A model generated the notes under the pieces. The model was not told the origin of the DNA and did not search any database. It saw only the letters and a list, made by a program, of their open reading frames with translations. From an uncultured Pelagibacteraceae bacterium (lineage in GTDB: Bacteria > Pseudomonadota > Alphaproteobacteria > Pelagibacterales > Pelagibacteraceae), in assembly GCA_902616145.1 (NCBI GenBank), contig CACMRM010000002.1:124001-188000 (forward strand): a stretch of 64,000 nucleotides of DNA, in the 5' to 3' direction. Every line of letters begins with the position of its first letter. Position 1 is the stretch's first letter. The translations under genes and the position numbers were made by a program. Below are positions 35,701 to 48,927 of this stretch, one piece after another.

Positions 35701-36202
35701 TAAATTTTATAACAATGATCTTAACGAGGGGGTCGTTGCTGGAACGATTATGTCGATTCAAGAAAAAAAAAGTTCAAAAGGAACACCGTACGCAATTATT
35801 AAGTTTAGCGACCAAAAAGGAGAATTCGAATTATTTTTATTTGCTGATACACTTATAAATAATAGGGACAAATTGAAAGAATCAGAGTCTTTTGTAATCA
35901 CTTTACATAAAGAGAGAGCTTTGGTTGAAAATGGAAAAAAAAGAGTAAATATAAAAAAAATTGTGAGCTTAGATGAGTTAATTAACAAGCCCTACTCTGA
36001 TGTTACAATAGAGTTAAATGATGAGTTAAAAGTTAATGAAATAAGTGAAATTCTGTCAAAAAATGGCGAAACTAAAATAAATCTTATTATTAAAAATCAA
36101 AACAGGAAGGCAAAATATTCCCTGCAAAATAATAGAAAATTTGACCTAAAACATTTGAAGTCCCTAAAAGCTAAGGAATACGTGGCAAAAATAATTGTAT
36201 AG
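32786..36202 (+). CDS. dnaE: DNA polymerase III alpha subunit
   Basis: An 1138-residue replicative polymerase. The N-terminal PHP domain (FKVHSQYSICEGAAKIDDLAEYC) leads into the palm, where PVGPGRGSGAGSLVAY and the catalytic aspartates of PDFDIDFCEEKRDRV (near residue 401) are seen. Further blocks are GLFQLESAGMREA, YGIIIYQEQVMQIAQ, LRRAMGKKK and AQYGFNKSHAAAYALIAYQTAYLK. The C-terminal part contains an OB-like domain and a diverged tail. It begins within lolD, so it is probably co-transcribed with the lol genes, a common alphaproteobacterial order. Confidence 0.97.
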   Translation: MQVNDKVFNNFKVHSQYSICEGAAKIDDLAEYCKINKIKSLGLADSFNLCGALEFSEKLSKVGTQPIIGTQINVKFHNTIGKVTLYAKTEEGYKNLTKLSSLSYLNSKEIEEPNCKIEDLITNNKDLILLSGNYRDLFGKLFHSNKIKNFEELATLFKKNFEERTYFEIQRHNETAEKNFEIFLLNNSKKLGIPIIASQEVFYLNKEMFEAHDALTCIGQKEFVDNKNRFRLSDQHFLKKSEELAKLFSDVPEALENNYNFHLRFSFKPKKSNPILPSISSSQSQSPEDELLRQAELGLEKRIKNFILKKNPKETEIKIREKYKDRLSHEINIINSMNYASYFLIVSDYIKWAKKNYIPVGPGRGSGAGSLVAYCLDITDLDPIEYDLIFERFLNPDRISMPDFDIDFCEEKRDRVFEYLKTKYKDGVAHIITFGKLKARMALRDVGRVLGLSYGHVDRLCKMVPFDPSRPLTLQESIDREPRFKEEVKNNPKVKKLLELSLKLEGLNRNMATHAAGVVIAGEKLAEQFPLYVDHTSNLILPSTQYDMYSSENAGLVKFDLLGLKTLTVIDKTLKRLKAKQIELDISKINQNDKKVFSLLSTGETTGLFQLESAGMREAIKQMKPNSFDDIIALVALYRPGPMSNIPIYNECKNGIREPDYIHPTLKNILKPTYGIIIYQEQVMQIAQTLAGFTAGEADILRRAMGKKKKAELDRQKERFINGAIKNGITKEVANFVFTKIEPFAQYGFNKSHAAAYALIAYQTAYLKTYYKEDFISATMSTELTNTSKLREFVEELKRLKVEIIKPSINKSYAEFKAEDKKIYYGLGAIKNVGFEAISNIINEREKNGKFLTFENFIMRVNSKDVNKLQLEGLTKAGVFDEFDKDRNKIFNSIPKIIQQIKNINDDRFNKQTNLFENNENISNNFEFLSCKPWKKKELLAEEFKSLGFYISDHPLNEYNEVFNQLNIISYDKFYNNDLNEGVVAGTIMSIQEKKSSKGTPYAIIKFSDQKGEFELFLFADTLINNRDKLKESESFVITLHKERALVENGKKRVNIKKIVSLDELINKPYSDVTIELNDELKVNEISEILSKNGETKINLIIKNQNRKAKYSLQNNRKFDLKHLKSLKAKEYVAKIIV

Positions 36203-36206
36203 AGTG

Positions 36207-36234
36207 TTGATTTTTTAAATTGTTTCTATATATC
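36207..36234 (+). promoter_or_regulatory. Putative rpsB promoter
   Basis: TTGATT at 36207-36212 and TATATC at 36229-36234, 16 bases apart, form a plausible housekeeping promoter. Transcription would then start near 36241, about 10 bases before the structured rpsB leader. The -10 hexamer is the same as that proposed for the tRNA-Val promoter. Confidence 0.4.
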
Positions 36235-36248
36235 AGATAATAATTTCG

Positions 36249-36321
36249 CACACAGTTTCAAGGGTGTTGCCCTACCGGTCCATTAATTTGGAATTACTGT
36301 GGTGGATTAACCGGAAAAAAA
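36249..36321 (+). promoter_or_regulatory. Structured rpsB leader with pseudoknot topology
   Basis: Four pairing elements can be read directly. CACAGT (36251-36256) pairs with ACTGTG (36296-36301). AGGG/CCCT (36261-36264 with 36270-36273) forms a small hairpin. CCGGT (36275-36279) pairs with ACCGG (36310-36314). CCA/TGG (36280-36282 with 36289-36291) forms a second small hairpin. The first and third helices interleave, giving an H-type pseudoknot. The last strand ends 7 bases before the rpsB ATG, where a ribosome-binding site would lie. Leaders before rpsB in other proteobacteria mediate feedback by protein S2, and a candidate rpsB leader has been described for Pelagibacter; the same role is inferred here. 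Confidence 0.7.
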
Positions 36322-37059
36322 ATGAAAGTACCAAAAGTAGATATTAAACAATTACTAGAAGCGGGTGTCCATCTAGGTCATAAAACATTAAGGTGGAATC
36401 CCAAAATGAAAAAATTCATATTTGGAGAAAAAAACTCAATACACATAATAGATTTAACACAGACCGTCGATTTTCTTAAAGCGGCTCTAGTTGAGGTACA
36501 CAAAGTGATTTCAAGTGGAGGAAAATTATTAATTGTATCAACAAAAAAACAAGCTTCAGAACAAGTGAGTAATTTAGCAGTAGAAACAGGCCAGTACTTT
36601 GTAAATTATAGATGGTTAGGTGGCATGCTTACTAATTGGAATACAATTCAGAATTCAATCAAGAGACTTAAAAAATTAGAAGACCAACTTTCAAAAGAAA
36701 ATTTAGGTTTTACAAAAAAAGAAATTTTAAAATTTGGCAAAGAAAGAGAAAAGCTTAAAAGATCTTTAGGTGGTATTGTTGAAATGAAAAAAACACCAGA
36801 CTTAATTTTTATAATTGATACAAACATAGAGTCATTAGCAGTAGCTGAAGCAAAAAAATTAGGAATACCAATAATTGCAGTGCTTGACACAAATTCGGAT
36901 CCTACTGGAATAGATTTTCCTATACCAGGCAATGATGACGCAAGAAGATCGATTAATCTCTATTGCGAATTATTGAAAAATACAATTAAAGATGCAGAAA
37001 AACAAATTATAGGCGCAGAGGACAAAAAAGAAAAGAGCGCTACCCAAAAAAAAAAATAA
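36322..37059 (+). CDS. rpsB: 30S ribosomal protein S2
   Basis: A 245-residue S2, clear from LLEAGVHLGHKTLRWNPKMKKFIFGEKN at the N-terminus, VNYRWLGGMLTNWNTI in the middle, and PDLIFIIDTNIESLAVAEAKKLGIPIIAVLDTNSDP. The C-terminal tail is lysine-rich. The start is fixed by homology and by the leader structure ending just before it. tsf follows after 18 bases, the standard rpsB-tsf pair. Confidence 0.97.
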   Translation: MKVPKVDIKQLLEAGVHLGHKTLRWNPKMKKFIFGEKNSIHIIDLTQTVDFLKAALVEVHKVISSGGKLLIVSTKKQASEQVSNLAVETGQYFVNYRWLGGMLTNWNTIQNSIKRLKKLEDQLSKENLGFTKKEILKFGKEREKLKRSLGGIVEMKKTPDLIFIIDTNIESLAVAEAKKLGIPIIAVLDTNSDPTGIDFPIPGNDDARRSINLYCELLKNTIKDAEKQIIGAEDKKEKSATQKKK

Positions 37060-37077
37060 TTAAGTAAACTTTTATTC

Positions 37078-37944
37078 ATGTCTGCCAAAAACTTATTAGA
37101 TAATATTAAAAAACTTAGAGAAATGACAGGTGTCGGTTTTAAAGACTGTAAAGTGGCACTAGAAGAAACTAAAGGAGATTTAGAGAAATCAGTAGAGTTT
37201 TTAAGAAAAAAAGGGATCGCAAAAGCCTCAAAAAAAATGAGCCGTACCGCTTCTGAGGGATTAGTTTTAGTAAAATCTTTTGATGACAAAGCTTCTATTA
37301 TTGAAATTAATAGTGAAACTGACTTTGTTGCTAAAAATAATGACTTTATAAGTTTTTGCAAGGAGTTGTCAGAGATTAATTTTTTATCAAAAGGGAACAT
37401 CGAAAAATTAAATAACTCTAAAATGAAAAACAATCTTTTAGTGAAAGATAACCTTGTAAATTTAATTGCTAAAATTGGAGAAAAAATTACCATCAGGAGG
37501 ACAAAGTTTTTCGATAATAATACTGGAACAAATTTTTTTTATGTACATTCAGCAATTGAAAAGAATATTGGAAAAATTATTTCTATGGTGAAAATAGATG
37601 GAATTATAAAAGGCAAAAACGAAGACATAGGATCCAAAATAGCTATGCATATAGCTGCATCAAATCCTCTATCTATTGAAAAAGATGGAATAGATAAAAC
37701 AATCATTGAAAAAGAATTAGAAATAATTAAAGCCGAAATTACTAATTCTGGCAAATCTCAAGAATTGGCAGATAAAATTTCAAAAGGAAAAATAGAAAAG
37801 TTTTTAAACGACAACTCACTTTTAAATCAAATTTGGATAATGGACCCTAAAAAGAAAGTTTCTGATGTTTTGAAAGAAAATTCTTTGGAAAAAGAATTGA
37901 AAGTTTTAGATTTTGCTAAATTCAAAGTTGGAGAAGGAGTATAG
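37078..37944 (+). CDS. tsf: Elongation factor Ts
   Basis: A 288-residue guanine-nucleotide exchange factor for EF-Tu. The N-terminal UBA-like domain (LREMTGVGFKDCKVALEETKGDLEKSVEFLRKKG) and the TDFVAKN signature in the core are clear; MHIAASNPLS marks the second subdomain. frr starts 2 bases after its stop, so pyrH, normally between them, is not here. Confidence 0.96.
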   Translation: MSAKNLLDNIKKLREMTGVGFKDCKVALEETKGDLEKSVEFLRKKGIAKASKKMSRTASEGLVLVKSFDDKASIIEINSETDFVAKNNDFISFCKELSEINFLSKGNIEKLNNSKMKNNLLVKDNLVNLIAKIGEKITIRRTKFFDNNTGTNFFYVHSAIEKNIGKIISMVKIDGIIKGKNEDIGSKIAMHIAASNPLSIEKDGIDKTIIEKELEIIKAEITNSGKSQELADKISKGKIEKFLNDNSLLNQIWIMDPKKKVSDVLKENSLEKELKVLDFAKFKVGEGV

Positions 37945-37946
37945 TT

Positions 37947-38507
37947 ATGAGCTCAGAATTTAATGAAAAAAACTATTCAATGAAAATGGAAAAAAGCATT
38001 GTCTCTTTTAAAAAAGATATATCAACTTTAAGAACAGGGAGAGCCAACACTTCTATGTTAGATACTATAAAAGTTGATATATACGGACAACAAATGCCTA
38101 TAGAGCAACTGGCAACTATAAGTGTGCCAGAGGCTAGGCTAATATCAATTCAAGTGTGGGATAAATCGAATACCAATGTGATAGAGTCAGCTATCCAAAA
38201 ATCTGAATTAGGAATAAATCCTCAAATAGATGGACAAATAATAAGATTAAGAATTCCTGATTTAACCGAAGATAGAAGGAAAGAACTGATTAAGATTTTA
38301 AAAAATATGGGTGAAAAAGCAAAAATTTCTATAAGAAACATTAGGAGAGAAGCAAATGAAGAGTTAAAAAAAAGTCTAAAATCTAAATCACTTTCTGAGG
38401 ACCAAAATAAAAACTTCGAAAAAAATATTCAAAAATTGACAGATAACAATATTGTAAATATTGAAAAAATTGTAACTGAAAAAGAAAAAGAGATAATTCA
38501 AATATGA
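37947..38507 (+). CDS. frr: Ribosome recycling factor
   Basis: A 186-residue RRF that with EF-G splits ribosomes after termination. The central DTIKVDIYGQQMPIEQLATISVPEARLISIQVWDKS and the C-terminal RIPDLTEDRRKELIKILKNMGEKAKISIRNIRREAN are highly characteristic. AAGGAG at 37934-37939 lies 7 bases before the ATG, inside the end of tsf. It overlaps uppS by 4 bases. Confidence 0.97.
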   Translation: MSSEFNEKNYSMKMEKSIVSFKKDISTLRTGRANTSMLDTIKVDIYGQQMPIEQLATISVPEARLISIQVWDKSNTNVIESAIQKSELGINPQIDGQIIRLRIPDLTEDRRKELIKILKNMGEKAKISIRNIRREANEELKKSLKSKSLSEDQNKNFEKNIQKLTDNNIVNIEKIVTEKEKEIIQI

Positions 38508-39172
38508 ACCAACTCAACCATATTGCCTTTATCATGGATGGCAATGGAAGGTGGGGAAGAAAAAAAAATAAAGGTAGAAATTACGGGCACATAAAAGGCG
38601 TAGACACTGTTAAAAAAGTTGTGAGCAGTTCTATAAAACTTAAAGTACCAGCTATTACATTCTATGTTTTCTCATCTGAAAATTGGAAAAGACCAAAAAG
38701 TGAAATAAACTTTTTATTTAAGTTGATAAAAAAATATTTTTCAAAAGAAATACAAAGCGTAATCTCTCAAGGCATTAAAATTAATATCATTGGAGATGTA
38801 AATAAATTAACACCAGATTTAAAAAAAGTTTTAAAAAAAACAATGTATTTAACTAAAAAAAATTCCAAAATCTTAGTAAACCTAGCAATTAATTATGGAT
38901 CAAGAAATGAAATTATTAATGCTGTGAAAAAGTCATCAAAGAAAATTACTATAAAAAGTTTCCAAAAAAATCTTTTTACAAATAATATACCTGATCCTGA
39001 CATACTAATAAGAACTGGAGGACATAAAAGACTTAGTAATTTTATGCTTTGGCAATTAGCATATGCAGAACTATTTTTTTTGAAAAAATTATGGCCTGAT
39101 TTTAATGAAAAAGATTTAAAATCTATTATTAAGAAATTTAAAAATATAAAAAGAAATTTTGGTGCTTTATGA
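38504..39172 (+). CDS. uppS: Isoprenyl transferase (undecaprenyl diphosphate synthase)
   Basis: A 222-residue cis-prenyltransferase that makes undecaprenyl diphosphate, the lipid carrier for wall and surface glycans. The catalytic region HIAFIMDGNGRWG has Asp12. The YVFSSENWKRP motif and the C-terminal PDILIRTGGHKRLSNFMLWQLAYAEL match the family; the usual ...GEQRLSNFLLWQ has GHKRLSN here. Slightly shorter than E. coli UppS. Confidence 0.95.
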   Translation: MNQLNHIAFIMDGNGRWGRKKNKGRNYGHIKGVDTVKKVVSSSIKLKVPAITFYVFSSENWKRPKSEINFLFKLIKKYFSKEIQSVISQGIKINIIGDVNKLTPDLKKVLKKTMYLTKKNSKILVNLAINYGSRNEIINAVKKSSKKITIKSFQKNLFTNNIPDPDILIRTGGHKRLSNFMLWQLAYAELFFLKKLWPDFNEKDLKSIIKKFKNIKRNFGAL

Positions 39173-39822
39173 TTTCAAATAATTTAAAACTTAGATTAAT
39201 AACTTCATTTTTTTTAATTACTCTAATTATTTTATTATTTAAATATAAATTTATATTAATTTATAGTTTAATTGTGTTTGGTGTAATTTCCTTCTTAGAA
39301 TTTTCCAATTTAATAAATAAAGTAAAACTAAGCACAGTTAACCGCTTAATTTCTAATACTTTATTTCTATTTTATGTATTTTTGTTTTGTTTTTTATTTT
39401 TTTTATTTTGCTCTTTTATTCAATTAAAATTTTTACTTTTTACAATTTTATTAGGTTGCGTTGCTTCTGATATTGGAGGTTTCGTTTTTGGTAAAATTTT
39501 AAATGGTCCTAAACTGACAAAAATAAGTCCTAAAAAAACCTACGCCGGTTCTTTAGGATCAATAATTTTGACTTGTTTAACATTATCTTTTCTTTTTTAT
39601 TTTATATCCGACACATTTAGTTTTAAAATTCTATTAATATCAATTTTAACCTCTATTGCATGTCAGTTAGGTGATTTATTTTTTTCATTTATTAAAAGAA
39701 AAGCTAAAATAAAAGACACAGGTAATTTACTTCCTGGACATGGTGGTCTACTCGATCGCCTAGATGGAATATTTTTTGGTATGCCGGTTGGATTCTTATC
39801 ACTTATTATATTTTACTCATGA
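39169..39822 (+). CDS. cdsA: Phosphatidate cytidylyltransferase
   Basis: A 217-residue multi-helix membrane enzyme forming CDP-diacylglycerol for phospholipid synthesis. The family signature appears in full near the C-terminus: SFIKRKAKIKDTGNLLPGHGGLLDRLDG. An upstream SDIGGFVFGK...KISPKKTYAG block is also conserved. It is shorter than the E. coli enzyme (about 285 residues) because the N-terminal helices are reduced. Overlaps of 4 bases join it to uppS and dxr. Confidence 0.92.
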   Translation: MISNNLKLRLITSFFLITLIILLFKYKFILIYSLIVFGVISFLEFSNLINKVKLSTVNRLISNTLFLFYVFLFCFLFFLFCSFIQLKFLLFTILLGCVASDIGGFVFGKILNGPKLTKISPKKTYAGSLGSIILTCLTLSFLFYFISDTFSFKILLISILTSIACQLGDLFFSFIKRKAKIKDTGNLLPGHGGLLDRLDGIFFGMPVGFLSLIIFYS

Positions 39823-40982
39823 AAAAATCTTTTTCTATCATTGGTTCAACGGGGTCTATAGGCCTGACAACTTTAAAAGTAATAAATAGAAAGCGAAAAG
39901 ATTTTTATATAAATATTTTAGTTGCTGATAAAAATTTCAATTTAATATGTAGTCAAATCAAAAAATATAAACCTAATATTTTTTTCATAAATAATTTTAA
40001 AGTTTTTGAAAGGGTTAAAAAGAAATTTAAATCCTCAAAAACAAAAATTTTACATACAAGTGATTTAAAATTTAAATCCATTAAATCATCGGAATATACA
40101 CTCACAGCAATACCAGGAATTATTGGATTAGTTTCAACTTTAGAAATGATTAAAAAAACAAAAAAAATTCTTATTGCTAATAAAGAGTCAATTATTTGTG
40201 GATGGAAACTTTTACACAAAACTGCAAGAAAATATAAAACAGAAATTATACCAATTGACTCAGAACATTTTGCTATAATGAAACTTTTGGAAAAGAATAA
40301 TATTACTGATATTAAAAAAATTTATTTGACAGCATCTGGTGGACCCTTTCTCAATCACAAGTTATCTGCTATTAAAAATGCTGGTCCCAAAGAAGCTTTA
40401 AAACACCCTAAGTGGAAAATGGGAAAAAAAATATCGATAGACTCAGCAACATTGATGAATAAAATTCTTGAACTTATCGAAGCTCAAAAACTTTTCAATA
40501 TTCCTCAAAAAAAACTTGAAATTGTTATTCATCCTCAATCGCTGGTACATGCAATTATTGAATTAAAGAATGGTCTGTACAAGTTTATTTATCACCACAA
40601 TTCTATGATTATACCTATAGCAAATGCTATATTTGGAGATAAATTGTTAATAGATGAAATATATCCCGAACATTATAAAAAAAATGTTTTTTTAAATAAT
40701 TTCAGTTTTCAAAAAGTCGATAAGAAAAAGTTCCCAATCATAAAAATCAAAAATAGACTGAATGAGCATAAATCTACCGCAATTATAATTAATGCTGTCA
40801 ATGAAACACTAGTTGATCTATTTCTACAAAAAAAAGTAGCTTTTTTTGACATTTTTAGAACTATTTTGAGAGTACTGAACGATAGAAATTATAAAAAATA
40901 TGCTGTAAAAGATCCAAAAAGTATAAACGAGATATTTTTAATCGACAAATGGGCTCGCGATATAAGCATTAAAAAAATATGA
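39819..40982 (+). CDS. dxr: 1-deoxy-D-xylulose 5-phosphate reductoisomerase
   Basis: A 387-residue enzyme making 2-C-methylerythritol 4-phosphate in the non-mevalonate isoprenoid pathway, which supplies the substrate chain for UppS next door. The NADPH motif GSTGSIG is near residue 9-15, ANKESIICGWKLL near 125, the metal/substrate region IPIDSEHFAIMKLL near 145 and TASGGPF near 170. bamA starts within its last codons, so the usual rseP gene is absent from this spot. Confidence 0.95.
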   Translation: MKKSFSIIGSTGSIGLTTLKVINRKRKDFYINILVADKNFNLICSQIKKYKPNIFFINNFKVFERVKKKFKSSKTKILHTSDLKFKSIKSSEYTLTAIPGIIGLVSTLEMIKKTKKILIANKESIICGWKLLHKTARKYKTEIIPIDSEHFAIMKLLEKNNITDIKKIYLTASGGPFLNHKLSAIKNAGPKEALKHPKWKMGKKISIDSATLMNKILELIEAQKLFNIPQKKLEIVIHPQSLVHAIIELKNGLYKFIYHHNSMIIPIANAIFGDKLLIDEIYPEHYKKNVFLNNFSFQKVDKKKFPIIKIKNRLNEHKSTAIIINAVNETLVDLFLQKKVAFFDIFRTILRVLNDRNYKKYAVKDPKSINEIFLIDKWARDISIKKI

Positions 40983-43213
40983 ATTATTTTGTAAAAATTT
41001 TTACCACACTTCTTTTTGTATTAATGTTAACGCCTTTAAGCGCTGAAACAGTTAATAAAATTATTATTAATGGTAATAAGAGAATAAGTGAAGAAACAAT
41101 CAAGGTATATGGTGAAATCAACCTAAATGAAAAAATAGATGAAATAAAAATCAACAAAATTTTAAATAATTTATATTCGACAAATTTTTTCGAGGATGTA
41201 AAAATCAAAGTTTCAAACAATATTCTTGAAATTGATTTAAAAGAGTATCCAATTATAAATCAATTAATTATTATCGGGGAAAAAACCAATAAAATTAAAG
41301 ACCAAATTAGAAAAGCAATTAAATTGAAAGAGAAAAATTCATTTATCAGATCGGACCTTGCAAGCGATATTGAAAAAATAAAGAAACTTTACTCTTCAGC
41401 AGGATATAATTTTTCAAAAATAGATGCAAAACTAAAAAAAATTGATGAAAGTAATTTGGATTTAATTTTAGTGATCGATCGAGGTGAGATTACAAGGATA
41501 TCCACTATATCATTTACTGGAGATAAAAAAATTAGAGACAAAAGATTAAGAAGTGTAATCGCAAGTGAGGAGGATAAATTTTGGAAAATAATTTCAAGGA
41601 ATACAAAGTTTAGTGAAAGTTTAATAAATTTAGATCTAAGACTTTTAAGAAATTATTATAAATCACTAGGATATTATGATGTAAAAATTAATTCAAAAAC
41701 AGCAGAAATTAACACAGAGGGAAATATTGATCTTGTATATTCAATTGATGCGGGACAGAGATACTCAATCAATAAAATAACAACCAATGTTGATCCAGTT
41801 TTTGATAAAAAGATATTTTTTGAATTAAACGAAATTTATAAAGAATATATTGGTGAATATTATTCGCCTTTTAAGATTAAGGATCTTTTAGAAGAAATTG
41901 ACTCTATTATAGAAAAAAATAATCTACAATTTGTCGAACACAATGTGGAGGAAATATTGAACAAAAATAATATTGAAATAAAATTCAATATTTTTGAAGG
42001 AGAAAGAACACTAGTAGAAAGAATAAATATTTTTGGGAACACAATTACTAATGAAAGCGTAATTAGAGGAGAACTTTTAATAGATGAGGGAGACCCTTTT
42101 ACAAAATTAGGACTAGAAAAATCAATTTCAAATTTAAAATCAAGAAAATTATTTGGTAAAGTGAATTCAGAAGTTGTAGATGGAACCAAAAAAAATTTGA
42201 AAAGTATTAATATTAATGTGGAAGAAATGGCGACTGGTGAGATAAGTGCAGGCGCAGGTATAGGTACAAATGGTGGAAGTTTTGCTTTCAATATTACTGA
42301 AAATAATTGGCTCGGTGAAGGAAAAAAAGTAAACTTTGAAGTAGAGGTAGACGAGGAGTCTTTAGCTGGAACCTTAAATTATTTAAATCCGAATTATGAT
42401 TTTTTGGGAAATTCATTAAATTATTCTATTAGCAGTGTGTCTAACGATAAACCTGATCAAGGATACGAAAATAGAATAATTTCAGCAGGTGTAGGTACCT
42501 CTTTTGAGCAATACAAAAACCTCTACGCGTCACTTGGATTAAACGCTTCTTACGATGATTTAACTACTAACTCATCTGCGTCGTCATCATTGAAAAAACA
42601 AGCAGGCGAGTTTAGTGAAATATCTGGTAATTACGGTTTTAGCCTTGATAACAGAGATAGAACTTTCATGCCAACTAGCGGTAACATAATAACTTTTAGA
42701 CAAACACTGCCGTTGTTTGCAGATAAAAAATTCATCGCAAACACTTTAAGTGCAAGTGCATATAAATCTATAACTGAAAATGTTATCGGTGCTTCGAAAT
42801 TTTATTTTTCTGCAATAAATGGAGTAGACGATAACGTTAGACTGAGCAAAAGAACAGGCTTAAGCTCAAAAAGATTGAGAGGATTTGAAAAAAATAAAAT
42901 TGGTCCAAGAGACGGCAAAGATCATGTTGGTGGAAATTATTCTGCTGCCTTGAATTTTGAGGCCAACTTGCCAAATCTTTTGCCAGACTCCACTAATATG
43001 GACGTAGGCTTATTTCTTGATTTTGGTAATGTATGGGGCGTTGATTATGATAGTTCTTTACCAAACAGTAATAAGGTGAGATCTTCAACAGGAGTAGCAG
43101 CCAGCTGGATCTCTCCTGTAGGACCTATGACGTTTATTTTATCAACAAATTTATCAAAAGCGCCAACAGACGAAACTGAAAGTTTTAATTTTAGTTTAGG
43201 AACAACTTTTTAG
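40979..43213 (+). CDS. bamA: Outer membrane protein assembly factor BamA
   Basis: A 744-residue Omp85 protein that inserts beta-barrel proteins into the outer membrane. A signal peptide (about residues 1-22, ending PLSAE) is followed by five POTRA-like repeats up to about residue 400 and a C-terminal 16-strand barrel. Barrel features include ISGNYGFSLDNRDRTFMPTSGN and the terminal aromatic residue. The loop motif corresponding to VRGF is seen as RLRGFEKNKIGPRD. It overlaps dxr by 4 bases. Confidence 0.96.
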   Translation: MNYFVKIFTTLLFVLMLTPLSAETVNKIIINGNKRISEETIKVYGEINLNEKIDEIKINKILNNLYSTNFFEDVKIKVSNNILEIDLKEYPIINQLIIIGEKTNKIKDQIRKAIKLKEKNSFIRSDLASDIEKIKKLYSSAGYNFSKIDAKLKKIDESNLDLILVIDRGEITRISTISFTGDKKIRDKRLRSVIASEEDKFWKIISRNTKFSESLINLDLRLLRNYYKSLGYYDVKINSKTAEINTEGNIDLVYSIDAGQRYSINKITTNVDPVFDKKIFFELNEIYKEYIGEYYSPFKIKDLLEEIDSIIEKNNLQFVEHNVEEILNKNNIEIKFNIFEGERTLVERINIFGNTITNESVIRGELLIDEGDPFTKLGLEKSISNLKSRKLFGKVNSEVVDGTKKNLKSININVEEMATGEISAGAGIGTNGGSFAFNITENNWLGEGKKVNFEVEVDEESLAGTLNYLNPNYDFLGNSLNYSISSVSNDKPDQGYENRIISAGVGTSFEQYKNLYASLGLNASYDDLTTNSSASSSLKKQAGEFSEISGNYGFSLDNRDRTFMPTSGNIITFRQTLPLFADKKFIANTLSASAYKSITENVIGASKFYFSAINGVDDNVRLSKRTGLSSKRLRGFEKNKIGPRDGKDHVGGNYSAALNFEANLPNLLPDSTNMDVGLFLDFGNVWGVDYDSSLPNSNKVRSSTGVAASWISPVGPMTFILSTNLSKAPTDETESFNFSLGTTF

Positions 43214-43216
43214 TTT

Positions 43217-43741
43217 ATGAAAAAGATTAAAATTATCTCAATATTGTTAAGTTTTTTAATCTTAACACCCAATAATCTTTTAGCTTCAACTACTTACTAT
43301 TTGGATTTTAAATATATTTTAAATGAGAGTGATGCCGGAAAAAAAGCTCAAAACGAATTAAAAAAAAAATTAAACGATGGAATTAAATCCTCTAAGAAAA
43401 AAGAAAAATCGCTGCAAGAGGAAGAAAAAAAAATAATCCAACAAAAAAAAATTATTTCTGCTGAAGAGTATAAAAAAAAACTTCAATCTCTCAGAACTAA
43501 AGTCTCTAGTTTGCAAAAGGAAAGAAATAGCTTGCTAGAGAATGTTGGGAGACAGAGAGCTAAAGCAAGAAATGAATTATTAAAAAATTTAAACCCAATA
43601 ATTAGAGAATATATGAAAACAAAAAATATTAAGATCGTGATGGACAAAAAAAGTTTGATACTTGCAGATGAGTCTTTAGATATTACCAAAGATATTATAA
43701 AGCTATTAAATGATAAAATTAAGTCAATAAAATTAAACTAA
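43217..43741 (+). CDS. OmpH/Skp-family periplasmic chaperone
   Basis: A 174-residue protein with a cleavable signal peptide (about 1-24, ending NNLLAS) and a lysine/glutamate-rich coiled coil spanning about residues 45-115. Location directly after bamA and before lpxD, and the Skp-like pattern of short strands flanking the coiled coil ([26 protein letters not shown] and the C-terminal [18 protein letters not shown]), identify it as a Skp/OmpH-family chaperone that holds unfolded outer-membrane proteins. Confidence 0.85.
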
Positions 43742-43749
43742 AAAGTTTA

Positions 43750-44721
43750 ATGGAAAACAAATCAATTATTTTTTTTGAAAATAAAAAATATTCTATTAAA
43801 AAACTATTTCCTAAAAATACTTTTAAAAAGAATTCTGTCATTAATTTCGTAAAATCTTTAAACAATGCAAAGCAAAATGATCTTACTTTTTATGACTCCA
43901 AAAATTATTTTAAATTAGCCAATTCAACCAAAGCCTCATATTGTATAACTACTAAAAAGTTAGCAGACGACTTACCCCAAAATGTTGAAAAAATAATAGT
44001 AAAAAACGTTTTATTTGAATTAGCGAAAATACTTAAGAAAATTTTTCCTACCGCAGATATCGATTATCCTGATCTAACAGTAAAAAAACCTTTATCTAAA
44101 AATTTCAAGTTTGTTAAATTTGGTAATAATGTTTTAATTGGTAATAAAGTAAAAATTGGTAAAAATTCGATTATTGGATCAAATACTATAATTGAAAATA
44201 AAGTTATGATAGGAAATAATTGTATTATTGGCTCGGGGGTTGTTATTAAAAACTCAATTATTGGAAACAATGTTATTATTCAAGATGGATGCAAAATTGG
44301 TCAAAAAGGATTTGGTTTTATACCTGTACCAGGAGAAAATATAAAATTTCCTCACATAGGAAGAGTGGTAATAGAAGATAAAGTTGAGATAGGATCTAAT
44401 TGTACTATTGATCGTGGATCTGTAGATGATACTAAAATTGGATCAAACTCGTACTTGGACAATCAAGTGCATATTGCTCATAATGTTAAAATTGGATCTG
44501 ATTGCATGATTGCAGGTCAAGTAGGATTTGCCGGGAGCTCAATCATTGGTAATAAAGTTTCTATTGGTGGTCAAGCCGGTATATCAGGACATTTAAAGAT
44601 TGGAAATAATGTTAAGATTGGCGGTGGTAGTGGAGTGGTAAAAGATATCGAGGATAACCAAATAGTAATGGGATATCCTGCTGTTCCTTTTCGCCAATTT
44701 TTAAAAGATAAAAAAAAATGA
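43750..44721 (+). CDS. lpxD: UDP-3-O-acylglucosamine N-acyltransferase
   Basis: A 323-residue left-handed beta-helix acyltransferase adding the amide-linked acyl chain in lipid A synthesis. An N-terminal uridine-binding domain (to about residue 105) is followed by hexapeptide repeats ([22 protein letters not shown] and onwards). The catalytic His is in [15 protein letters not shown] and the C-terminal motif [15 protein letters not shown] is typical. It overlaps fabZ by 4 bases. Confidence 0.95.
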
Positions 44722-45173
44722 GTGAAAGCGAAATAGATAAAAAAAAAATTGAGAGTTTGTTACCTCATCGGGAACCTATGTTGCTTATAGACAAGCTTAC
44801 TAAAATTGTTCCTTTAAAATCAGCTACTGCAATAATGAATGTTAAGAAGAATGGTTTTTATGTACAAGGTCACTTTCCTGGCCAGCCAGTTATGCCAGGA
44901 GTTTTAATCGTCGAAGCATTTGGCCAAGCAGCTGCTGCATTGACCGCCCACGGTATAGATCCTAAAGAATACGAGAATAAATTAGTTTTTTTAATGAGTG
45001 TTGAAAAAGCAAGATTTAGAAATCCTGTTATACCTGACTGTGAATTACATTTAGAAATAGAAGCTATCAGATCTCATGGAAGAGTATGGAAATATAAAGG
45101 TATAGCTAAGGTTAATGGAAAGAAAATGGCAGATGCAGAGTGGTCAGCAACTATAGTGGAAAAAAAACAATGA
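44718..45173 (+). CDS. fabZ: 3-hydroxyacyl-ACP dehydratase FabZ
   Basis: A 151-residue hot-dog-fold dehydratase of fatty acid elongation. The active-site His52 and Glu66 lie in [21 protein letters not shown], and the N-terminal [15 protein letters not shown] is typical. Its position between lpxD and lpxA links 3-hydroxyacyl-ACP use in lipid A and fatty acid synthesis. It overlaps lpxA by 4 bases. Confidence 0.96.
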
Positions 45174-45949
45174 TTCACAACTCTAGCGAAATTAATAAAA
45201 AAGCAAAAATAGGTAAAAATGTTAAAATTGGCCCTTTTTGTTATGTAGGACCCGATGTGATTTTATCTGATGATGTTGAATTAGTCTCAAATGTTCATAT
45301 AGAAGGCAACACATTTATAGGAGCAGGAACAAAAATTTTTCCTTTTGCTAGCATAGGTACTCAACCACAAGACTTAAAATATAAAAATGAAAAAAATAGT
45401 TTGTCTATAGGTCAAAACAATATAATAAGAGAATATGTTACTATTAACCCCGGTACTCAAGGCGGTGGTTCTAAAACAGTAGTTGGCAATGATTGTCTTT
45501 TCATGATTTCATCTCACGTAGCTCATGATTGTAATATTGGAAATAATGTAATTGTTGCAAACAATGTTCCATTAGGTGGGCACGTGACCATAGAAGATTC
45601 AGTTGTCATAGGTGGTAACTCTGCAGTTCAACAATTCACTCGAATAGGTAGATTAGCTATGATTGGCGGAATGACAGGAGTATTAAAAGATGTAATTCCA
45701 TTCGGATTATCTGTTGGTAATAGAAATTATTTACAGGGCCTTAATTTAATAGGATTAAGAAGAAAAAAATACGACAATAAAAAAATTATAGGACTTGATA
45801 AAGCGTATAAAGAAATTTTTTCTTCAAAAAACTTATATCAAAACCTTACTAAGATTAATGGCGCTTATAGAGACAATGAATTAGTGAATGAGGTGGTTAA
45901 ATTTATTGAGAAAGATAAAAAACGACCAATTTGCTCACCACAAAGTTAA
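45170..45949 (+). CDS. lpxA: UDP-N-acetylglucosamine acyltransferase
   Basis: A 260-residue left-handed beta-helix enzyme catalysing the first step of lipid A synthesis. The hexapeptide repeats run from about residue 8 to 185. The catalytic His119 lies in SSHVAHDCNIG. The frame is open to 45140, but the ATG at 45170 gives [15 protein letters not shown], the family start, and a tidy ATGA overlap with fabZ. Confidence 0.96.
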   Translation: MIHNSSEINKKAKIGKNVKIGPFCYVGPDVILSDDVELVSNVHIEGNTFIGAGTKIFPFASIGTQPQDLKYKNEKNSLSIGQNNIIREYVTINPGTQGGGSKTVVGNDCLFMISSHVAHDCNIGNNVIVANNVPLGGHVTIEDSVVIGGNSAVQQFTRIGRLAMIGGMTGVLKDVIPFGLSVGNRNYLQGLNLIGLRRKKYDNKKIIGLDKAYKEIFSSKNLYQNLTKINGAYRDNELVNEVVKFIEKDKKRPICSPQS

Positions 45950-45956
45950 ATAATTT

Positions 45957-46748
45957 ATGATTGGGCTCATTTTTGGAGAGACAGAATTTCCAAAATATAT
46001 TTTAAAAAAGATCAAAAAAAAATATAAATATATTATTATCGATTTAACAAAAAAAAAAATATTTAAGAAAGATAAAAATTCTTATTCCGTATCTATTGGA
46101 CAATTTGGAAAGATTTTATCTATTTTAAAATCAAATAGATGCAAAAAAGTTTTGTTCGCAGGAAAAGTTTCGAAACCAAATTTAAAGTCAATAAAACTTG
46201 ACTTAAAAGGAATTTTTTATATGCCTAAAATATTAAAAAGTTCAAAATTGGGAGACGCAGCAATACTAAAACAAATTATTAAAATATTTAAGACTGAGAA
46301 AATTCAAACTTTAAGCTCTAATAAATTTACTCCCGAGATCAGTTTATCAAAAGGTAATTACACGATTTCTAAACCAAATATTTCTGATAAAAAAGATATT
46401 TATTGTGGAGAAAAAGCTTTGAAAAAATCTGGGAATTATAATTATACTCAAGGTGTAGTTTGTAGAAATAATAAAGTAGTGAGTTTGGAAGGTAGAGGGG
46501 GGACAAAAAAAATGATAAAAAAAGTCAAAAAAATTAACAAATCTCTAAATGGTGTATTAATTAAGTTTCCCAAAAAAAAACAGGATTTAAGAGTAGATCT
46601 CCCAACTGTAGGATTGCAAACTCTAAAACAATGTAAATCAGCAGGTTTAAAAGGAATAGTTTTAAAACATAGGTTAAATATTTTTTTAGACAAGAGACAA
46701 AGTATTCAATTCGCAAATAAAAACAAAATGTTTATCCTTATTAAATGA
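45957..46748 (+). CDS. lpxI: UDP-2,3-diacylglucosamine diphosphatase LpxI
   Basis: A 263-residue LpxI (formerly DUF1009) that hydrolyses UDP-2,3-diacylglucosamine to lipid X, replacing LpxH in Alphaproteobacteria. Visible family features are GLIFGETEFP at the N-terminus, LFAGKVSKP near 63-71, KLGDAAILKQI near 97, QGVVCRNNKVVSLEGRGGT near 166 and DLPTVGLQTLKQCKSAGLKGIVL. Its place after lpxA fits. The next gene starts within its stop. Confidence 0.9.
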   Translation: MIGLIFGETEFPKYILKKIKKKYKYIIIDLTKKKIFKKDKNSYSVSIGQFGKILSILKSNRCKKVLFAGKVSKPNLKSIKLDLKGIFYMPKILKSSKLGDAAILKQIIKIFKTEKIQTLSSNKFTPEISLSKGNYTISKPNISDKKDIYCGEKALKKSGNYNYTQGVVCRNNKVVSLEGRGGTKKMIKKVKKINKSLNGVLIKFPKKKQDLRVDLPTVGLQTLKQCKSAGLKGIVLKHRLNIFLDKRQSIQFANKNKMFILIK

Positions 46749-47800
46749 AAAAAATTATAATTATTTGTATAATCTCTTTTACAAATCTCTATGCTGATGA
46801 TTTTAAATTAGAAAAAGTTATTAAAGGATTCGAAAGACCTTGGAGCTTAGCTTTTATCGATGAGGAAAATTTAATTATTACCGAAAAGTCCGGATATATT
46901 AAATTAGTCGACATAGATAAAAATAAGATTCATAATATACAACATAATTTAAATGTTTTAGAGGACGGTCAAGGCGGTTTGCTTGATGTACTTTACCAAA
47001 ATGGTGTCGTTTTTGTTTCTTACTCAGAAAATAGACTTAGCGGAATGTCAAGTACTTCAGTGGCAAAAGCAAACTTTAATAAAAAAAAACTCTATTTTAA
47101 AAATATTTTTCGTGCTGAACCACCAATAAATTCTGGTTATCATTTTGGTTCTAGATTAGCGATTAAAGATAATCACTTATATGTAACTGCTGGTGAAAGA
47201 GGTCAAGGCATGATTGCACAAGATTTTACAAAACATCCTGGGAGTATAATTAGAATAAAATTAGATGGTTCTATACCTAAGGATAACCCAAAATTCATAA
47301 ACAGACAGGATTGGCTTCCAGAAATTTATCAAATCGGAGTAAGAAACCCTCAAGGAATGTCTCTCTCACCATATGATAATAAAATTTATTTGACGAATCA
47401 TGGAGCTAGGGGCGGGGATTGGTTTGGCACAGCAAATTTTGGGGAAAATTATGGATGGAAAATTTTAGGATGGGGAGGAATTAATTATTCAGGGACTAAA
47501 ATTGGACCTAAATGGAAACCGGGATTTACAAAAGCAATAAAATATTGGGTACCCTCTATAGCTGTTAGTGCAATGTTAATTTACGAAGGTGAAACTTTTA
47601 AAGAATGGAATGGTGATGCTCTGATTGCATCACTAAAAGACCAATCATTGAGAAAAATAAAATTTAATAAAAAAAAATTTGTTAATGAAAAAATTATTTT
47701 TCAAGGAAATATTGGCAGGATTAGGGATATAAAAAAAAATAAAATAGGTGATCTTTACTTGTTATCAGATAAAGGTGAACTTTGGAGAATGTATAAGTGA
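46745..47800 (+). CDS. PQQ-dependent sugar dehydrogenase-like exported protein
   Basis: A 351-residue protein with a signal peptide (about 1-18) and a six-bladed propeller of the glucose/sorbosone dehydrogenase family (YliI/Asd-like). GFERPWSLAFIDEENLIITEKSG, GGLLDV, YHFGSRLAI (the family's active-site His), and QIGVRNPQGMSL with an Arg corresponding to the PQQ-binding Arg, are seen. It is probably periplasmic and oxidises aldose sugars if PQQ is available; no PQQ synthesis genes are in the window. It lies between lpxI and lpxB with 4-base overlaps on both sides, an unusual place. Confidence 0.82.
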   Translation: MKKIIIICIISFTNLYADDFKLEKVIKGFERPWSLAFIDEENLIITEKSGYIKLVDIDKNKIHNIQHNLNVLEDGQGGLLDVLYQNGVVFVSYSENRLSGMSSTSVAKANFNKKKLYFKNIFRAEPPINSGYHFGSRLAIKDNHLYVTAGERGQGMIAQDFTKHPGSIIRIKLDGSIPKDNPKFINRQDWLPEIYQIGVRNPQGMSLSPYDNKIYLTNHGARGGDWFGTANFGENYGWKILGWGGINYSGTKIGPKWKPGFTKAIKYWVPSIAVSAMLIYEGETFKEWNGDALIASLKDQSLRKIKFNKKKFVNEKIIFQGNIGRIRDIKKNKIGDLYLLSDKGELWRMYK

Positions 47801-48927
47801 AAAAAATATTTATTCTTACAGGTGAACCCTCTGGAGATAAATTAGCATCAAAAGTAATTCAAGAATTAAAAAAAAATAATTCGCAAATTGAATATTTAAG
47901 TGTGGGAGGTGAAAATTTAAAAGCATTAGGAATAAAATCAATTTATGATTTAAATGACATAACCTATATAGGATTTACAAATGTGATTAAAAATATATTC
48001 AAAATTAATAGAAAAATTAATGAAACTGTAAAAGCTATAAAAGATTTTGATCCTAATATTTTATTTACAGTTGATAGCCCTGATTTTACTTTAAGAGTTG
48101 CTGAACGTGTAAAAAAACTAAATCCTAATATAAAAACAATCCATTATGTTGCGCCACAAGTATGGGTTTGGAGAGAGGGAAGGGTCAAAAAAATTAAAAA
48201 GTTTATTGACCACATATTATTATTATTTAATTTTGAAAAATCGTATTTTGATAAAGAGAATATGAGCAATGAGTTTGTGGGACACCCTTTGTTAGATGAA
48301 ACTTTAGAAAGTAAAATTGATATCAATCAACTATTTGAAAAAAATAAAGCATTAATATCAGTTTTTCCAGGAAGTAGAGTATCTGAAATTGATGTCTTAA
48401 TGCCTGTCCTTTTAGATTTTGTAAAATTAATGAATAATAATTACCAAGATTTTATTTATATATTTCATTCAACAAAACAACATTATGATTTAATACAATC
48501 GCACATAAAATCTCAAAATATAAGTAATTGTGAAATTATTAGTGATGAAAAAATAAAGTCTCACACTTTAAAGAAATCTGTATTTGCAGTTGCTAAATCT
48601 GGCACAATTTCACTTGAAATTTGTAAATCTAAAGTTCCATCTATCATTCTCTATAAAATGAATTTTTTTAATTATTTAATCGTAAGGTCTTTGGTGAAGG
48701 TAAAATTTGCAAATATTATTAATATTGCAGCAGGAAAAGAAGTAATACCTGAATTACTCCAAACAAAATGTAATCCAAAAGATTTATTCAAAGCTGTAAG
48801 TTCTTTTATTGATAATCCAAGTAAAATTAAGGAGCAGGTTGAAAAAACTCAATCGATATTAAATACATTTAAAACTGATATCTCCTCATCAAAACTTGCA
48901 AGTAAAGCTTTGAGTAAATATCTATAA
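47797..48927 (+). CDS. lpxB: Lipid-A-disaccharide synthase
   Basis: A 376-residue GT19 glycosyltransferase joining lipid X and UDP-diacylglucosamine. The N-terminal GEPSGDKLASKVI, YVAPQVWVWREGRVKKI near 110-124, FVGHPLLDE near 165, and PGSRVSEI near 195 are diagnostic. The start is a GTG at 47797, overlapping the previous stop. Its 3' end converges on the oxidoreductase cluster with a 1-base gap and no terminator visible. Confidence 0.95.
   Translation: MKKIFILTGEPSGDKLASKVIQELKKNNSQIEYLSVGGENLKALGIKSIYDLNDITYIGFTNVIKNIFKINRKINETVKAIKDFDPNILFTVDSPDFTLRVAERVKKLNPNIKTIHYVAPQVWVWREGRVKKIKKFIDHILLLFNFEKSYFDKENMSNEFVGHPLLDETLESKIDINQLFEKNKALISVFPGSRVSEIDVLMPVLLDFVKLMNNNYQDFIYIFHSTKQHYDLIQSHIKSQNISNCEIISDEKIKSHTLKKSVFAVAKSGTISLEICKSKVPSIILYKMNFFNYLIVRSLVKVKFANIINIAAGKEVIPELLQTKCNPKDLFKAVSSFIDNPSKIKEQVEKTQSILNTFKTDISSSKLASKALSKYL

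Follow-up and report, generated by a model that had tools for sequence, protein, structure and literature searches.

According to a review of the E. coli system, ribosomal protein S2 acting with S1, which is required, represses rpsB-tsf through the leader of the transcript; the Shine-Dalgarno sequence and the start codon lie outside the operator, the mechanism of repression is described as unclear, and deleting a conserved bulge in the leader may abolish regulation. For the SAR11 bacteria, the closest described element is the rpsB motif (Rfam RF01815), which Meyer et al. (2009; PMC2704228) reported from Candidatus Pelagibacter ubique in the interval between dnaE and rpsB. As described there, the motif consists of P1, P2, P3 and a pseudoknot and occurs in most Alphaproteobacteria and beyond. 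A 2019 study met the rpsB motif again in HIMB5.

The DNA analyzed here, referred to as the window, is a 64,000-nucleotide stretch of contig CACMRM010000002.1 from an uncultured Pelagibacteraceae bacterium (assembly GCA_902616145.1, positions 124,001 to 188,000 of the forward strand). An original prediction made from its letters alone held that CACAGT (36251-36256) pairs with ACTGTG (36296-36301) and CCGGT (36275-36279) with ACCGG (36310-36314), giving a pseudoknot with two small hairpins in its loops that ends just before rpsB; it also pointed to an S2-dependent leader in E. coli and a leader candidate in Pelagibacter. Both helices are present and interleaved in the window sequence, the 3' strand of the pseudoknot does end 7 nt upstream of the rpsB ATG at 36322, and the two hairpins correspond to P2 and P3 in the pseudoknot-free minimum free energy (MFE) fold. 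The E. coli regulation is as the review describes it, and the Pelagibacter candidate to which the prediction pointed is the rpsB motif of Meyer et al. (2009; PMC2704228). P1 is longer than first noted, with nine positions rather than 6 bp, one of them (36248/36303) prone to mismatch; it encloses P2, the 5' strand of the pseudoknot and P3, and is itself spanned by the pseudoknot (Table 1). The leader is thus an already known element in another SAR11 genome, and the structure first noted is confirmed as the published one. We consider it highly probable that it is the RF01815 5' leader of the Pelagibacteraceae rpsB-tsf transcript, with a pseudoknot that S2 would hold in place to block the 30S subunit.

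Table 1. Features of the rpsB leader and the adjoining genes (positions within the window).
Feature	Position	Strand	Remarks
Likely promoter, TTGATT (36207-36212) and TATATATC (36227-36234)	36207-36234	+	predicted
P1, 5' strand CGCACACAGT	36247-36256	+	A36250 bulged; MFE fold and family alignments
P2 hairpin, AGGGU/GCCCU with loop GUU	36261-36273	+	MFE fold and alignment
Pseudoknot, 5' strand CCGGU	36275-36279	+	J2-3 of the published motif; sequence and covariation
P3 hairpin, CCA/UGG	36280-36291	+	MFE fold (hairpin at 36279-36292) and alignment
P1, 3' strand ACUGUGGUG	36296-36304	+	contains GGUGG together with G36305; fold, alignments and anti-Shine-Dalgarno duplex
Pseudoknot, 3' strand ACCGG	36310-36314	+	-12 to -8 from the ATG, the usual Shine-Dalgarno place
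Spacer from pseudoknot to start codon	36315-36321	+	A only; without a separate Shine-Dalgarno
rpsB, ribosomal protein S2	36322-37059	+	Pfam PF00318, 291.9 bits; TIGR01011, 313.7 bits
tsf	37078-37944	+	Pfam EF_TS
frr	37947-38507	+	Pfam RRF

Taken as a single sequence, the leader does not stand out. When the 79-nt leader was shuffled with its dinucleotides preserved, 636 of 2000 shuffles contained an exact 6-bp and an exact 5-bp helix that interleave, as did 237 of the 810 tiles of the window. With about 30% of shuffles and tiles positive, simply having such complementary stretches was dropped as evidence. Fold stability was likewise dropped, the pseudoknot-free fold having a z of -1.27 with 25 of 200 shuffles equally stable. 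The single-sequence pattern is not beyond chance; conservation and covariation alone make it significant.

Comparison with the Rfam rpsB models, proposed alongside the original prediction, returned RF01815 over 36247-36330 with 33.5 bits (E 5e-5), below the gathering score of 40; at E ≤ 0.001 this is the sole match in the genome. The gathering score is reached by 0 of 61 genomes of the order, which is the order where the motif was first found, and 25 of the 61 match at E ≤ 0.001 (some of the 36 non-matching genomes lack rpsB in the assembly). Across a sample of the class, 123 of 191 match and 50 pass gathering. Because the motif itself was first described from Pelagibacter, we read the sub-cut-off score as probably reflecting a strict cut-off for a shortened member rather than non-membership.

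To place the leader among its relatives, genus, family and class genomes and those of a second family of the order were searched for S2, after which the upstream DNA of the matches was read. S2 was present in 52/60 family and 40/61 genus genomes (88 distinct genomes), including all of those at least 90% complete (27/27 and 4/4, respectively). The leader structure was found in 81 of 81 Pelagibacteraceae upstream regions picked by S2 alone, in every case directly upstream of rpsB, and, as judged by eye, also in the remaining seven family genomes with S2, six of them at loci found through RF01815 and the seventh fetched separately. The motif pattern also matched 80/80 named loci (kept from 571 confirmed, all labelled Pelagibacteraceae or Candidatus Pelagibacter; 19 are duplicate sequences of the 81), and the nearest named relatives of the window's S2 gene are Pelagibacteraceae. 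In the second family of the order, S2 was present in 19 of 24 genomes (10 of the 12 more complete ones), and both pseudoknot strands were found at all 19 S2 loci.

Pairing in P1 is strongly maintained across these loci. Over 75 distinct family leaders, its five inner pairs are formed in 369 of 375 cells (shuffles: 315, maximum 328), in a count where the 5' arm is the best-pairing candidate and structure is therefore favored; with the first candidate taken blindly as the 5' arm, 362 of 375 cells are paired, still above the shuffle maximum of 328 of the first choice. Three of the 75 leaders, of the CGCAGAGG type, show P1 mismatches, which by our reading reflect a one-base length change. In a 78-row family alignment, P1 is paired in 97.4% of cells with two-sided changes in five of nine pairs, P2 in 84.6% with two-sided changes in three of four counted pairs, and P3 in 74.4%, the alignment fitting P3 poorly. 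The whole structure is 91.4% paired there vs. 32-46% when slid; three measures (percentage paired, number of cells showing two-sided changes, covariation score) lie above 500 of 500 shuffles, and two do not: the count of pairs with two-sided changes (82/500 as high) and that of pair types (450/500 as high).

A covariance model that was trained on family leaders only and omits the pseudoknot was run on 100 further S2-anchored loci, comprising 88 class loci, 11 of the 19 second-family loci and E. coli. It found 83 of the 100 at E ≤ 1, 67 of those below 0.01, and scored the E. coli leader weakly (E 0.32). P1 is 89.4% paired in the alignment of these 83 loci vs. 34-51% when slid, and no shuffle reaches the observed value in four of five whole-structure measures; the exception is the count of pairs with two-sided changes (61/500 as high). 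A lack of compensatory changes in the helices among relatives had been named as grounds for refuting the structure; for P1, close relatives carry many two-sided changes. In the latter alignment, 70 of the 83 rows with letters at 36248/36303 have a non-standard pair there; together with the bulged A, this position looks like a conserved irregular spot that we suggest as a candidate S2 contact, a suggestion of our own that fits the statement on bulge deletion in the E. coli leader.

The pseudoknot behaves differently within the family and beyond it. All five pairs are present in 74 of the 75 distinct family leaders and four of five in the other, which has one C-A break; ACCGG is invariant in 74 of 75, and no compensatory change of the pseudoknot occurs among the 75. 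These figures come from the anchored count, used instead of a MAFFT alignment (A1) in which seven rows are one base off register in the pseudoknot columns. Beyond the family, the case rests on the alignment in which the pseudoknot-free model placed the 3' strand (two rows are one base off register, and one is a spurious second match in locus L162). Of 70 rows with ACCGG, 69 carry CCGGT. Where the 3' strand has changed (to ACCAG, ACCGA, ACTGG, ATCGG, ACGAG or ACCCC), nine of 11 rows carry the exact complement, against a background of 1-12 of 83 other rows for those complements, and one of 11 still carries CCGGT; the two rows lacking the exact complement are L200 and L243. In E. coli the pseudoknot reads GGGGT/ACCCC. 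Compensatory change in this helix is accordingly found in other Alphaproteobacteria and in E. coli, and is absent inside the family. Since the pseudoknot changes are matched across the class, the sequence comparison indicates that the pairing, and not the strand alone, is kept there.

Counts made with a descriptor of the class motif point in the same direction and are biased toward structure, as the descriptor demands an exact pseudoknot complement: it recognized 65 of 88 class loci and 10 of 1760 shuffles, and with 23 further rows added by eye, equally biased, 439 of 440 pseudoknot cells are paired in the 88 rows (shuffle maximum 429). At the level of sequence comparison, covariation establishes the leader structure itself. 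One alphaproteobacterial locus, L065, carries a compensated pseudoknot (CCAGT/ACTGG) in a leader whose end lies 79 nt upstream of the start codon, well away from any ribosome site.

The less familiar point of this known leader is that in SAR11 the pseudoknot lies at the ribosome docking place. In the 81 family loci, 4-12 nt (median 8) separate it from the start codon, with a Shine-Dalgarno-like 4-mer in the spacer of four of them; in the 80 named Pelagibacteraceae loci kept of the 571 the range is 4-9 nt, and none has such a 4-mer (0/80). Among other Alphaproteobacteria, the 65 of 88 class loci recognized by the descriptor have spacers of 9-23 nt (median 17), 57 of them with a Shine-Dalgarno-like 4-mer, as do 29 of 30 loci brought in by RF01815; by alignment, ATG is the start in 77 of the 88 class S2 loci, and the rest may have misplaced starts that blur the spacer lengths. 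The second family of the order has spacers of 7-10 nt, and in all 19 of its loci (L160-L178), vs. six of 81 in the window's own family, the pseudoknot strand reads ACCGGAG, with a GGAG that overlaps it by two shared Gs. Four family loci (L045, L047, L054 and L115) carry AAGGA between pseudoknot and ATG, perhaps a remnant of a separate Shine-Dalgarno. A limited search of the open-access literature, by titles and the starts of abstracts, found no treatment of the pseudoknot-to-start spacing in SAR11, and the main text of Meyer et al. (2009; PMC2704228) contains no word starting with Shine or sequester.

The 16S rRNA of this genome ends in the canonical anti-Shine-Dalgarno CCTCC; the pattern GGATCACCTCCTT is absent from the genome and from eight of eight relatives, and its T form, GGATTACCTCC, is found in four of six genomes tried, this one included. 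A matching Shine-Dalgarno 4-mer lies upstream of only 16 of the 58 open reading frames (ORFs) of the window, so weak use of the Shine-Dalgarno is general here. The best anti-Shine-Dalgarno match before rpsB is the GGUGG at the base of P1 (-4.9 kcal/mol), which ends 16 nt before the ATG and is replaced by GGAGG in nine of 81 family loci; the pseudoknot strand offers only GGA (-3.5 kcal/mol). Either way, whether the site is the GGUGG of P1 or the pseudoknot strand, the leader structure covers the best ribosome-site match.

Upstream of the leader, the likely promoter would start transcription at about 36241-36243, just before P1, so that the 5' untranslated region would be the leader alone, about 80 nt. 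A TATATA-like hexamer ending 11-15 nt before P1 occurs in 33 of 37 distinct upstream regions of the genus and in only four of 40 from the rest of the family. A consensus promoter scan gave three hits vs. 3.3 in shuffles and missed the conserved TATATATC, and no consensus scan picked its combination with TTGATT. A terminator scan of 36180-48300 found none vs. 3.5 expected, which has no bearing on operon ends. Downstream of frr, profile matches on the same strand identify undecaprenyl diphosphate synthase, a cytidylyltransferase, dxr, an Omp85 protein and an OmpH-like protein, followed by lpxD, fabZ, lpxA and an LpxI-like protein; gaps in the run from rpsB onward are at most 18 nt. By the original prediction, the leader would control this run, frr and the lipid A genes included. 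LpxB would be expected after the LpxI-like gene from usual gene orders. The ORF found there (46745-47800) instead matches a PQQ-dependent dehydrogenase family in NCBIfam, below cut-off, and not LpxB.

In the working of the leader that we favor, S2 in excess over 30S subunits would bind it and hold the pseudoknot closed; the probable contact is the conserved C-N-C-A-C / GUGG-N-G portion of P1. The 3' strand of the closed pseudoknot would then occupy positions -12 to -8 relative to the start codon and keep the 30S subunit off, and without S2 the 5-bp pseudoknot would open and rpsB would be translated. Masking of the ribosome site by the pseudoknot is plausible in SAR11 on grounds of geometry. 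It would be a feature of that geometry, given that in the review's account of E. coli the Shine-Dalgarno and start codon lie outside the operator, and for the same reason, together with the additional need for S1 in E. coli, occlusion may not be the actual mode of repression. More tentatively, and with somewhat less than even confidence, we propose that in the SAR11 order the rpsB operator may have become fused with the ribosome docking site. The 3' strand of the pseudoknot would replace the Shine-Dalgarno, closure of the knot and the start of translation would be mutually exclusive, and the second family, where two Gs belong to both GGAG and the knot strand, would represent an intermediate. 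This proposal is weakened by the best anti-Shine-Dalgarno match lying in P1.

A serious, if still doubtful, competitor to masking is an S2 operator whose pseudoknot does not cover the ribosome site: S2, with S1, would sit on P1 and trap or block the 30S subunit, or P1 would hide the GGUGG, and the closeness of pseudoknot and ATG in SAR11 would reflect genome streamlining only. The E. coli arrangement and its S1 requirement, as reviewed, speak for it, as does the rarity of Shine-Dalgarno 4-mers in the window, by which their loss at rpsB need not be special, and the strongest anti-Shine-Dalgarno match does lie in P1, with its GGAGG variants in the family. The 16 nt separating that GGUGG from the ATG are, however, longer than the usual distance, and both the -12 to -8 position of the pseudoknot strand and the GGAG overlap at 19 of 19 second-family loci weigh toward a pseudoknot that covers the site. 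The near-invariance of ACCGG within the family would also suit a role of the strand itself as translation enhancer or standby element, without S2 feedback in SAR11; we hold this improbable, because the matched changes across the class argue that the pairing is kept, and the corresponding E. coli leader is, in the review, an S2 operator. Chance complementarity without any structure, which the lack of significance in one sequence might have suggested, is already refuted by the covariation and by the presence of the structure in every family locus read, and has a negligible probability. With its lineage-specific geometry, SAR11 provides a compact S2 operator for directly testing how S2 represses, a step that is still unclear.

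Set against the known systems, the window's leader differs in nothing of kind from the rpsB motif (RF01815). The gene, the upstream neighbor dnaE, the helices P1, P2 and P3, and a pseudoknot between J2-3 and a strand after P1 are the same, and its P2 and P3 are short, as in the Candidatus Pelagibacter ubique form; it is shorter than the 132-position model. With the t44 RNA (RF00127), the E. coli rpsB leader, it shares a P1 with a CAC/GUGG base and the place of the pseudoknot, whereas the letters of the E. coli pseudoknot differ (as given above), a separate AGAGG lies between that pseudoknot and the ATG, and 24 nt separate its 3' strand from the annotated ATG; in Rfam, RF00127 is the model matched by the E. 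coli leader, and the window matches RF01815 and not RF00127. The SAM-V riboswitch of SAR11, compared here from the text of PMC2704228, is likewise a simple pseudoknot, typically no more than 10 nt from a start codon, but it responds to a metabolite ligand and belongs to other genes.
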